The position numbers and the translations under genes are program-made. Of a stretch of 64,000 nt of DNA, positions 9,442 to 13,029 are shown piece by piece (the first letter of the stretch is position 1; every line of letters starts with the position of its first letter). Source of the DNA: Micavibrio sp. (lineage in GTDB: Bacteria > Pseudomonadota > Alphaproteobacteria > UBA9219); contig DYDA01000010.1 in assembly GCA_020718105.1 (NCBI GenBank), forward strand, positions 1 to 64,000, written 5' to 3'. The notes beneath the pieces were generated by a model, which saw only the letters and a program-made list of their open reading frames with translations, did not search any database and was not told where the DNA came from.

Positions 9442-9948
9442 ATGAACAATATTTTCGTCCGTTTCGCCAGCAAGCCGCTCCACATAGGCGATGTCAAAGC
9501 GGCGCAGGAAAACGAAACGCTCCGCGCCGAAGACATCAAGATCACCGAGACAACTGAGTTAAGCACAGCAGAGTACGATGCCTTCATTCAATCGTTTCTC
9601 TCAGACCGCAACTGGTGCGTGGGCAAGGGTGGCTGCGCAAACGGGCGTGTCCAAGTGATTGAGGTTACTGCGCCAGATCGCCAATCGCTTTACGTCAACC
9701 CCGAAGGCTATAATTACGCGCGTTACGTCGGTCTTAAAGCCCCGGACAATGCGTTGCGTTTCCCCGATGTACGCGTTCAGCTTTCAGGCCGAGACGGCAA
9801 CGCATTTGCTGTGTTGGGACAATGCCAACGCGCCGCGCGCAAGGAAGGCGTGTCGGGCGATCAGATCAAAGAGTTTATGGCCGAGGCATCCGCCGGAAAC
9901 TATGATCACCTGCTGGCCACATGCATGCGCTGGTTTGATTGCACCTAA
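9442..9948 (+). CDS. Hypothetical accessory protein with two apparent domains (DUF6329-like N-terminus plus a second domain)
   Basis: LSDRNWCVGKGGCANG... N-terminal half and QLSGRDGNAFAVLGQCQRAARKEG...YDHLLATCMRWFD C-terminal half. Confidence 0.65.
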   Translation: MNNIFVRFASKPLHIGDVKAAQENETLRAEDIKITETTELSTAEYDAFIQSFLSDRNWCVGKGGCANGRVQVIEVTAPDRQSLYVNPEGYNYARYVGLKAPDNALRFPDVRVQLSGRDGNAFAVLGQCQRAARKEGVSGDQIKEFMAEASAGNYDHLLATCMRWFDCT

Positions 9949-11168
9949 GCGGCCTGAACTAACTCAGCCTTCTTTCCCGTAAACTCTTCCCACCGCTTGA
10001 CGATCACATCGCAGTATTTGGGATCCAGTTCAATAAGCCGCGCCTGACGGCCAGCTTTTTCGCAAGCGATGAGAGTACTGCCGGAGCCGCCAAAGCAATC
10101 CAAGACGATATCGCGGCTCTTGCTGCTGTTACGGACGGCGCGTTCAACCAGCTCCACTGGTTTCATGGTCGGGTGCAGATCGTTCTTCGCGGCCTTGTTT
10201 ACGAACCACACGTCGCCTTGGTCGCGCGCGCCGCACCAAAAATGATCCGTGCCTTGTTTCCAGCCATAAAGAATCGGCTCGTACTGGCGTTGATAATCCG
10301 ACCGCCCCAGCGTGAACGTGTTCTTTGCCCAAATGACAAAGGTCGACCATTTGCCGCCCGCCGCGACGAAAGCCTTCTGCAGCGTGTGCAGCTCGCTTGA
10401 TGACATGCAAATGTAAATCGCGCCTTTGCAAACGGCGATCATGTTGACGCATGCATCGTAGAGAAACGCCTCGAACCCTTCACCGAGATTGTCGTTCATG
10501 ATCTTGCGATCATTGCCGCGCATTTTGTCCTTAGCAGTGTTGCCATAATCCACATTGTAGGGCGGATCCGTAAACACCATGTCGGCCAGTGCGCCGTCAA
10601 GGACGCGCTCGACGTTTTCAAGGATCGTGCTGTCGCCGCAGAGCAAGCGATGATTGCCGAGGACGTAAAGATCGCCTGATTTTGTTTTTGGCTCAACCGG
10701 AACTTCCGGAACCGCATCGTCGTCCGTATTACCAGACGCGCCGTCATCCTCCAAAAGATCGGCAAGCTCATCATCCGAAAAGCCTGTGAGCGAGACGTCG
10801 AATCCATCACCCTCCAAGGCCGCCAATTCATCGCGCAAAAGATCGTCGTCCCAACCTGCATTAAGCGCCAACTTATTGTCGGCAATAACGTAAGCGCGTT
10901 TCTGCGCCTCGCTCAGATGGTCGAGCACGACAACGGGGACTTGCGTCAGGCCTAGTTGTTTTGCCGCCTGAAGGCGGCCATGCCCTGCAATGATCCCCGC
11001 TGCCGTATCGACCAGAATGGGGTTGAGAAACCCAAACTCGACGATGCTTGCCGCGACCTGACTAATCTGCTCGGGCGCGTGTGTGCGCGGATTGCGGTCG
11101 TAAGGCACAAGCCTTCCAACATCCCAAAGCTCGATGCGCTCAGCCATCCTATGGTTCGAAGAGGTCAT
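9945..11168 (-). CDS. ParB-like nuclease domain plus DNA N6/N4 methyltransferase
   Basis: LVPYDRNPRTHAPEQISQVAASIVEFGFLNPILVD..IIAGHGRLQAAKQLG (ParB-like), DPPYNVDYG and DCFGGSGSTLIACEKAGR (MTase). Confidence 0.92.
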   Translation of the reverse strand: MTSSNHRMAERIELWDVGRLVPYDRNPRTHAPEQISQVAASIVEFGFLNPILVDTAAGIIAGHGRLQAAKQLGLTQVPVVVLDHLSEAQKRAYVIADNKLALNAGWDDDLLRDELAALEGDGFDVSLTGFSDDELADLLEDDGASGNTDDDAVPEVPVEPKTKSGDLYVLGNHRLLCGDSTILENVERVLDGALADMVFTDPPYNVDYGNTAKDKMRGNDRKIMNDNLGEGFEAFLYDACVNMIAVCKGAIYICMSSSELHTLQKAFVAAGGKWSTFVIWAKNTFTLGRSDYQRQYEPILYGWKQGTDHFWCGARDQGDVWFVNKAAKNDLHPTMKPVELVERAVRNSSKSRDIVLDCFGGSGSTLIACEKAGRQARLIELDPKYCDVIVKRWEEFTGKKAELVQAA

Positions 11169-12519
11169 TCTGTTCCGGTTTCTGTGATGGCTTCAGTTGC
11201 CAAAGTGCAAAACGCATACGCTGCGACCAACGGCACCACGCCGTTCCCGCAAAGGCGGAGTCTGTCCACCCGATAGGCCAACCCATCAGCCATTCGACAA
11301 ATCGCGGGTTTAAGACTGGCTGGGATTCCGTCCCATCCATTGTGGTCAGCTGGGGCTGGTGGCCAGATTGGTAAGCCATCGGATGCGCCATCATGGAAAG
11401 ATTGACCTGCTTTCCCTTGGCCATCCGCCTCTGGATGCAGGGGTTCGATAGATTCCCCCGATCCCTGTAATCCGTCGATTGCGGCGTCGGCCACGTCTTG
11501 CTGGCCTCGGTCAAACTGAGCCCGTGATCCGAGCTTGTGCTGCCTGGCTCCTGCGCGCGCGGCGTCGGCCATTGAGCTTTCGCTATCCGGTAGCGACCGC
11601 CGCTCTTGGCCTTCTCCAGATCCTGTTTCGTGTAGGGAAACCCTTCCGGCTGCAGCACCGTCTCCGCAAGGCTCGGCGTGCGAAGAACATTGCGCCCGTC
11701 CTTGCGGATCATTTTCTCCGGTGGCCGCGCACGCTGAACAAGCGAGTCCGTTGCTGTTGCTGTCGGCCATAAGGTCGTCTGCGCCGTCAGCGATACGAAG
11801 CACCGATCCGTCCGGTCGCCGTTGCGCTTGAGGAAGCTGTCCTGTTTTTCTGTGGTCTCCTGCGCGCGCGGGGTCAACCATAGGGCCGCACTCACTTCCA
11901 GCCGCCCCTTCGGGTTCCCAGCCGAGATCTCTTTGCGTGATGCCCCGTTCGCCGAAGACACCCTCACGGTAGGCCAAGATGAAGAGGCGTTCACGCTTGT
12001 GCGGCGCGCCGACTTCCTGCGCCGTAAACAGGCCTGCCTTAACGCGGTAACCCATGCGCCAAAGGTCATCGTGGACTTGCTCAAACCCCAATCGTAAATG
12101 CCCGCCGACATTTTCAAAGAAGCAGAGCGGCGGTTTGATCTCGCGGACGATCCGCGCAATGTCCGGCCAAAGATGGCGCGGGTCTTTGTCGCCGAGCTGG
12201 CGGCCTGCAATCGAGAACGGCTGGCATGGATAGCCTCCATGGACGATATCCACCACGCCGCGCCACGCTTTGCCACGGAAGGTTTTAACATCGTCCCAGA
12301 CAGGCGCAGGATCCAAGGCCGTGTCTTCCATCCGCGCCACGAGAGTGGATGCGGCGTAGCTTTCCCGCTCAACGTAACAAACAGTTCGATAGTCTGGCAA
12401 AGCGAGGTGGAGGCCGAGGTCGAGTCCGCCTGCGCCCGCGCAAAGCGAGAGGCCGAACAACGCGCGCCCTTCGTTTGGGCATGCGTGATCGCCTCTGGCG
12501 GCAGATAGAGCCAGACCAA
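11149..12519 (-). CDS. Overlapping +1-frame ORF (frame B) with WPTP...NPRFVEWLMGWPIGWT motifs; true start unknown
   Basis: 456 codons open in +1 frame; repeated LWPTA/WPTPRAQ/WPTPQSTDYRDRGNLSNPCIQRRMAKGKQVNLSM and LNPRFVEWLMGWPIGWTD motifs resembling phage methyltransferase-associated proteins. Confidence 0.5.
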   Translation of the reverse strand: MVWLYLPPEAITHAQTKGARCSASRFARAQADSTSASTSLCQTIELFVTLSGKATPHPLSWRGWKTRPWILRLSGTMLKPSVAKRGAAWWISSMEAIHASRSRLQAASSATKTRAIFGRTLRGSSARSNRRSASLKMSAGIYDWGLSKSTMTFGAWVTALRQACLRRRKSARRTSVNASSSWPTVRVSSANGASRKEISAGNPKGRLEVSAALWLTPRAQETTEKQDSFLKRNGDRTDRCFVSLTAQTTLWPTATATDSLVQRARPPEKMIRKDGRNVLRTPSLAETVLQPEGFPYTKQDLEKAKSGGRYRIAKAQWPTPRAQEPGSTSSDHGLSLTEASKTWPTPQSTDYRDRGNLSNPCIQRRMAKGKQVNLSMMAHPMAYQSGHQPQLTTMDGTESQPVLNPRFVEWLMGWPIGWTDSAFAGTAWCRWSQRMRFALWQLKPSQKPEQNDLFEP

Positions 12520-12535
12520 GTGAGTTGTTCTCCAT
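11165..12535 (-). CDS. C5 cytosine DNA methyltransferase (frame A)
   Basis: LSLCAGAGGLDLGL (motif I), GGYPCQPFS (IV), ENVGGHL (VI), QEVGAPHKRERLFILA (VIII), RVDRLRLCGNGVVPLVAAYAF (IX/X). Confidence 0.9.
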   Translation of the reverse strand: MENNSLGLALSAARGDHACPNEGRALFGLSLCAGAGGLDLGLHLALPDYRTVCYVERESYAASTLVARMEDTALDPAPVWDDVKTFRGKAWRGVVDIVHGGYPCQPFSIAGRQLGDKDPRHLWPDIARIVREIKPPLCFFENVGGHLRLGFEQVHDDLWRMGYRVKAGLFTAQEVGAPHKRERLFILAYREGVFGERGITQRDLGWEPEGAAGSECGPMVDPARAGDHRKTGQLPQAQRRPDGSVLRIADGADDLMADSNSNGLACSACAATGENDPQGRAQCSSHAEPCGDGAAAGRVSLHETGSGEGQERRSLPDSESSMADAARAGARQHKLGSRAQFDRGQQDVADAAIDGLQGSGESIEPLHPEADGQGKAGQSFHDGASDGLPIWPPAPADHNGWDGIPASLKPAICRMADGLAYRVDRLRLCGNGVVPLVAAYAFCTLATEAITETGTE

Positions 12536-12543
12536 GTTTTTTC

Positions 12544-13029
12544 TTAATCGTTGCTCAGAATGAAACAGGCGATGTGCCGTCCCGTGCCTTTTCCTTGCGA
12601 TCCGTCTTCAATCGCGCACCAGCGGACGTCTCCAAGGTTTCTGACTTTAGCGCCAGAAGCAAGCAGCATAAGAACCCACTTGTCGATGGGATAGACCATC
12701 ACAACGCGCTTACCCTTTTTGAATTCCGCAACGGCTTTTTTTGCCCAAGCCGTCGCACCTTTCTTTTTTCCATTATGAAGGATGGAGCCGAACGGTGGGT
12801 TTACGTAATTGGACTCGCCCCATTCGATATCAAGACCATCGAAGTCGGCAGGTTTTGGAAAGGGACACGGATCGAACGTGAAACAAAACTCTTCGTTGAG
12901 CCGCGCCATCAAGTCGGGCGGGGTCAACCAGTAATGTTTCCCGTCGCCGCCGTTTCCGTTTTCAAAGCCCATGCCCCGTAACCTGTTGTGCGTGATGTAA
13001 CCTGTAACCGCCCTGTAACCCGTTTTCAT
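12544..13029 (-). CDS. Phage N6-adenine methyltransferase (Dam family)
   Basis: HYWLTPPDLMARLNEEFCFTFDPCPFPKP...NYVNPPFG...VMVYPIDKWV. Confidence 0.85.
   Translation of the reverse strand: MKTGYRAVTGYITHNRLRGMGFENGNGGDGKHYWLTPPDLMARLNEEFCFTFDPCPFPKPADFDGLDIEWGESNYVNPPFGSILHNGKKKGATAWAKKAVAEFKKGKRVVMVYPIDKWVLMLLASGAKVRNLGDVRWCAIEDGSQGKGTGRHIACFILSND

Follow-up and report, generated by a model that had tools for sequence, protein, structure and literature searches.

A prophage C5-cytosine methyltransferase probably encoded as two subunits in overlapping, almost co-extensive reading frames

We analyzed a methyltransferase locus in a Micavibrio sp. prophage at which two overlapping same-strand reading frames, A and B, are both conserved, begin at twin starts in relatives and come under selection in the order A-B-A. 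The locus most probably encodes one C5-cytosine methyltransferase as two subunits, alpha (frame A) and beta (frame B), working like M.EcoHK31I, a reading to which we assign a probability of about 0.8 on the basis of sequence comparison. Translation of both frames, assembly of a heterodimer and DNA methylation are what we infer from this pattern.

Results

Locus and genomic setting

The window, the whole stretch of 64,000 nucleotides that was analyzed, contains prophage genes for terminase, portal and head protease at 7467-2617. Frame A (11165-12535, minus strand), the proposed alpha subunit, is a 456-aa C5-cytosine methyltransferase frame with an ATG start and motifs I-VIII and X. Frame B (11149-12519, minus strand), the proposed beta subunit, is also 456 aa long and starts at TTG, where relatives have ATG. 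Each frame consists of 456 open codons, and the first position of a frame B codon is the second position of a frame A codon (B = +1). An earlier note on this DNA had placed both ORFs correctly while leaving the minus strand unstated, and its quoted peptides and codon-shift pairs (MADA/WPTP and RMADGLAYRVDRL/EWLMGWPIGWTD) were correct on re-reading.

The dual-frame gene lies in the middle of a three-methyltransferase cluster in the prophage. Its minus-strand neighbors are a ParB-N6/N4 methyltransferase fusion (9945-11168), whose ATG shares 4 nt with the frame A stop, and a weak Dam-like gene (12544-13029). A second copy in the same genome (L085) has the same arrangement, with a frame A 80% identical to that of the window. 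Over codons 20-57, L085 is identical to the window at the DNA level, and it differs elsewhere, a pattern resembling the outcome of gene conversion within the pair.

The frame A start lies exactly 4 nt ahead of the frame B start in 141 unique relatives (NTG-N-ATG), with ATG (117), TTG (18) or GTG (6) opening frame A and ATG opening frame B in all of them. The window is an outlier in that frame B starts at TTG; its start region (12517-12535, minus strand) comprises the frame A ATG at 12535, a GGAG at 12533-12530 and, behind this GGAG, the frame B TTG at 12519.

Frame A carries the catalytic domain and motif X

Frame A was identified as a C5-cytosine methyltransferase, as had been claimed, by both a Pfam match and an M.HhaI-like model. 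The Pfam DNA_methylase family (PF00145) matched residues 29-192 only (E 1e-32), and phrog_363 was matched in the PHROG library. Foldseek with the frame A model returned M.HhaI and M.HaeIII as the top structural matches over residues 22-200 (M.HhaI E 3e-12). The catalytic domain, which was confidently predicted by AlphaFold, occupies codons 22-191 (11963-12472, minus strand), contains motifs I, IV (GGYPCQPFS), VI (FFENV) and VIII, and is selected in frame A. It is followed by a VADA/MADA 'passenger' linker at codons 192-385 (11381-11962, minus strand), which is open, unselected in sequence and predicted to be disordered (residues 212-391 in the AlphaFold model). Selection in frame A resumes at the motif X helix region LRLCGNGVVPLVAAYAF (residues 426-446; 11198-11260, minus strand), and AlphaFold predicted a confident helix at residues 433-453. 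Measured against the features that define PF00145, frame A thus has motif X and a Rossmann-like catalytic domain with motifs I-VIII; motif IX and the target-recognition domain, which a typical member has in the same chain, between motif VIII and motif X, lie in frame B instead.

Frame B carries the WPTP repeats and motif IX

The WPTP-repeat region of frame B (11314-11964, minus strand) sits at the position of the target-recognition domain and is selected in frame B over most of its length. It is followed by motif IX, LNPRFVEWLMGWPIGWTD, at residues 403-420 (11260-11313, minus strand). We searched frame B against Pfam and NCBIfam, and no model of either library matched, while the PHROG search matched phrog_1008 (E 2e-30) and phrog_27243. 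A frame B profile gave only a chance-level hit among PDB sequences, so that no solved structure was matched, and AlphaFold modeled frame B alone at low confidence (mean pLDDT 36). PHROG lists phrog_363 and phrog_1008 as separate families, each labeled DNA methyltransferase, and does not record that they can represent two frames of a single gene.

A single-frame relative, gp71 of mycobacteriophage IrishSherpFalk (L091), holds motifs I-VIII, three LPTP repeats, LNPAFPEWMMGWPTGW and then GNGVVPQQ in one chain. Motifs, repeats and motif IX are alike in gp71 and the present locus, and the difference is that gp71 has all of them in one frame. Since this domain and motif IX are in frame in gp71, frame B carries part of the methyltransferase itself: its WPTP region and EWLMGWP make up the stretch from motif VIII to motif X, motif IX included. 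From its position after motif VIII and before motif IX, we take the WPTP region to be the target-recognition domain. In gp71, a +1 stretch is still open over motifs IV-VIII and enters the gene's own LLPTPETG. This stretch resembles a beta-frame remnant and may show how single-frame and dual-frame layouts interconvert.

Frame B had been described in the earlier note as a recognizable WPTP/EWLMGWP protein, and it is indeed a genuine coding frame that is conserved and overlaps the methyltransferase. The further suggestion that the WPTP family arose as a new protein from the methyltransferase C-terminus was not borne out, as gp71 carries the domain and motif IX in a single frame. Alternatively, beta could be a separate protein with a job of its own, such as a regulator or a counter-defence factor, that overprints the methyltransferase; the constrained segments in the N-half of frame B described below, which match no methyltransferase motif, would suit such a protein. 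We consider this unlikely, given that frame B contains the motif IX absent from frame A, that the LPTP/WPTP domain is integral to gp71 and that nearly all frame B loci found encode the frame A catalytic domain too.

Stop codons are depleted in both frames

Stops were counted in 35 representative loci, with expectations obtained by synonymous shuffling and the third frame used as a control. Frame A contained 12 stops across the B-coded region, all in one locus, compared to 147 expected, and was open through this region in 34 of the 35 representatives (1.1 expected). Frame B contained 4 stops across the A-coded catalytic region compared to 44 expected, and was open through it in 33 of the 35 (11.5 expected). 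The third frame showed no comparable depletion (141 stops vs 172 expected and 292 vs 262 expected). As stops are depleted beyond the expectation from synonymous shuffling, the dual openness reflects selection and not chance. An uninterrupted frame A spanning motifs IV to X was present in 156 of the 165 non-redundant loci accessible to automatic reading, and an uninterrupted frame B spanning motifs IV to IX in 162. Gene decay through recent frameshift mutations would fit the few relatives in which frame A is broken, but the arrangement is kept in these 165 loci and both frames are under strong purifying selection, making this the least probable explanation that we considered.

Selection alternates between the frames

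We compared changes by codon position between the window and relatives. Against L004, the changes at positions 1/2/3 were 0.05/0.03/0.20 over frame A codons 25-195 and 0.24/0.06/0.03 over codons 195-385, where first positions of frame A are third positions of frame B, and over codons 385-450 they fell at third positions again. The same A-B-A alternation was seen between the window and L005 and between the window and its paralogue L085. In 36 disjoint pairs of relatives, the change rate at 4-fold sites of frame A was 0.26 at codons 16-30 and 0.00-0.03 at codons 196-330; it was 0.00 (n = 406) at codons 346-360, which encode motif IX in frame B, and 0.14 at codons 361-375, which encode motif X in frame A. 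Within motif X of frame A, 20 pairs of relatives showed 0, 0 and 36 changes at codon positions 1, 2 and 3, respectively. The A-to-B switch after motif VIII has a sharp border, within a few codons: the frame A 4-fold rate was 0.29 (40/136 sites) at codons 181-186 and 0.00 at codons 187-192. In the middle third of the relatives' genes, changes fell at third positions of frame B rather than of frame A (e.g., 113 vs 2), and 4-fold sites of frame B changed at a rate of 0.16-0.35, equal to that of frame A sites where frame A alone matters. A rate this high implies that frame A is essentially free there, except that it must stay open. These results indicate that constraint mostly alternates in the order A-B-A, with motifs I-VIII and X held in frame A and the WPTP repeats and motif IX held in frame B, and that the VADA/MADA repeats of frame A are an out-of-frame shadow of the selected WPTP segments of frame B.

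The codon-position counts also bear on whether frame B is a by-product, open through base composition and similar among relatives only through the conservation of frame A. The 61% GC of the DNA would favor this, and some +1 similarity in the catalytic half is indeed induced by frame A. However, the middle-third changes avoid the third positions of frame A and not those of frame B, the depletion of stops goes well past the expectation from synonymous shuffles, and related +1 frames are open in lower-GC Gram-positive loci as well (L271, GC 0.44). Similarity induced by frame A was rejected as the origin of frame B on the codon-position counts and the synonymous shuffles, and we regard a by-product as very improbable.

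Within the catalytic half, synonymous sites of frame A were frozen at codons 46-75 and 136-165 of the relatives (73/1362 vs 455/2276; lower in 35 of the 36 pairs), and changes at codons 1-15 fell at third positions of frame B. Both patterns suggest that selection also acts on parts of the N-half of frame B. In the window, the frozen stretches (codons 43-75 and 136-165 of the relatives) correspond to the frame B segments at about residues 46-72, including SWRGWKTRPW (12304-12384, minus strand), and at about residues 149-165, STMTFGAWVTALRQ (12025-12075, minus strand). A few short stretches seem to be held in both frames at once. That both frames are constrained simultaneously had been the central claim of the earlier note; this stands for those few stretches, but constraint mostly alternates, and the VADA/MADA repeats of frame A are under no detectable amino-acid selection. 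The per-frame evolutionary comparison which that note had proposed found frame B under selection and depleted of stops, and not evolving neutrally. For loci of the alphaproteobacterial type, a beta frame that is only nested, from near motif VIII, was ruled out by the upstream selected segments of frame B, the stop depletion and the conserved start.

Relatives in other hosts and their annotation

Scans for frame B relatives returned 494 and 559 viral contigs and 367 genome places. Among the matches listed, the genome places are nearly all in Alphaproteobacteria, including isolates of Paracoccus, Shimia, Devosia and Sphingobium. The confinement of frame B relatives to methyltransferase loci had been named in advance as a point against the dual-frame reading; the relatives do occur almost only there, which is expected of a subunit.

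A related +1 frame is also open, and unannotated, inside annotated methyltransferases on Salmonella, Citrobacter and Enterobacter plasmids and one Bacillus plasmid, in one Erwinia phage and one Klebsiella phage, and in phages of Paenibacillus and Lacticaseibacillus. The genes from Salmonella and Citrobacter have a TTG 5 nt after AAGGAGG, and their synonymous sites are near-frozen at about codons 61-160 and variable ahead of beta and past the beta stop. The beta frame of these gamma-proteobacterial and Gram-positive loci thus looks nested, starting inside alpha. At the DNA level, the Salmonella gene was matched in 55 of 5426 complete E. coli genomes, and 54 of the 55 matches cover <80% of it.

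The spread of the dual-frame form over phage C5-methyltransferases refers to the sampled loci. The records that we examined annotate one frame only, which is the catalytic frame in Salmonella, Citrobacter, Enterobacter and Bacillus and in Paenibacillus phages; in Acidovorax and Synechococcus phages, frame B is annotated and the catalytic frame is unannotated. At L087:1206-2372, L088:1414-2529, L092:1144-2073 and L274:1651-2400, public records give frame B, whole or in part, as the gene and omit the overlapping catalytic frame.

A clade with a broken frame A

In a small clade of seven relatives (L006, L015-17, L185, L187 and L188), frame A is interrupted by several stops after motif VIII and before motif X, where B is the coding frame, which implies that alpha cannot be one chain there. 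Motif X is nevertheless conserved in frame A, at a place where frame B is variable. In all of them except L006, a conserved ATG after a Shine-Dalgarno-like GAGG or GAAGG opens an ORF of 87-99 codons with motif X. This ORF may encode a third peptide. WPTP-repeat modules differ in number and order between the close relatives L015, L185, L187 and L188, a variation that suggests that recognition modules recombine within frame B.

Programmed frameshifting, with a +1 shift from A to B after motif VIII and a -1 shift back into A ahead of motif X and past motif IX, would instead yield one chain. The selected segments (A, B, A) follow one another as the motifs do in an ordinary single-chain enzyme, and L015-17 keep motif X although frame A is broken upstream of it. 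Against frameshifting, it leaves unexplained the conserved twin starts and the openness of each frame through the part coded by the other (34/35 for frame A), the codons directly ahead of the switch still vary synonymously, no fixed slippery heptamer is apparent from the substitution rates, and nested relatives have internal beta starts with strong Shine-Dalgarno sites. Because neither twin starts nor open linkers are needed for frameshifting, we judge it improbable; the programmed +1 frameshift proposed for this DNA in the earlier note is not supported, the two frames having conserved starts of their own 4 nt apart, staying open outside their functional parts and changing synonymously before the switch.

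Discussion

In the two-subunit model that we favor, motifs I-VIII of alpha would form the catalytic large domain and the chain would end in the motif X helix, with a disordered linker between motifs VIII and X that needs only to be stop-free. Beta would supply the WPTP-repeat region and motif IX, bind DNA and complement alpha in trans. Both frames would be translated at full length from starts 4 nt apart in the alphaproteobacterial relatives, and a nested beta would start inside alpha in the gamma-proteobacterial and Gram-positive loci. Joining the A-B-A segments by hand into a chimeric chain did not raise the Pfam score and improved the PHROG score only a little.

The beta subunit of M.EcoHK31I is reportedly nested in alpha in another frame, as Lee et al. 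are said to have described in 1995, and the present locus is like that arrangement in encoding beta in an alternate frame that overlaps alpha. The beta frame here differs in being as long as alpha and starting at nearly the same codon (alphaproteobacterial type). According to a passage of PMC3404938, M.EcoHK31I (YGGCCR) has motifs I-VIII and X in its larger subunit and motif IX in its smaller subunit, and the present locus is alike at the sequence level, with motif IX in the selected frame B and motifs I-VIII and X in frame A. The same passage places the EcoHK31I target-recognition domain in alpha, whereas the selected target-recognition region here is in beta (PMC3404938). M.AquI likewise occurs naturally as two subunits, the larger of which has motifs I-VIII, but motifs IX and X are both in its small chain, whereas motif X here is in alpha; a frame overlap like that of the present locus is not described for M.AquI in the passage (PMC3404938).

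Our literature search, which was largely confined to papers outside subscription journals, found no account of the co-extensive form or its spread, nor a survey of the arrangement. What appears to be new is the almost co-extensive twin-start layout and its spread, the related nested beta frames elsewhere, and the clade with a possible motif X third peptide. We give even odds to a broader proposal, that many single-annotated C5-methyltransferases with VADA-rich linkers in phages and prophages are dual-frame heterodimers, that the alphaproteobacterial subunits are co-extensive with a beta N-half that has a selected function of its own, and that one clade is split into three overlapping peptides.

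Few readings of one DNA strand in two frames can be argued as strongly outside small viruses: two conserved frames overlap over ~450 codons, and selection changes repeatedly from one to the other, with sharp borders. Questions about overlapping genes become directly testable here, such as how both frames are initiated and how a recognition domain can change where only one frame matters locally. Errors of annotation are also indicated, as the examined records give the catalytic or the recognition frame and not both, and expression of the single annotated ORF would probably give enzymes that look inactive. Many phages and prophages carry related genes, and in most of their records only one of the two proteins is annotated.
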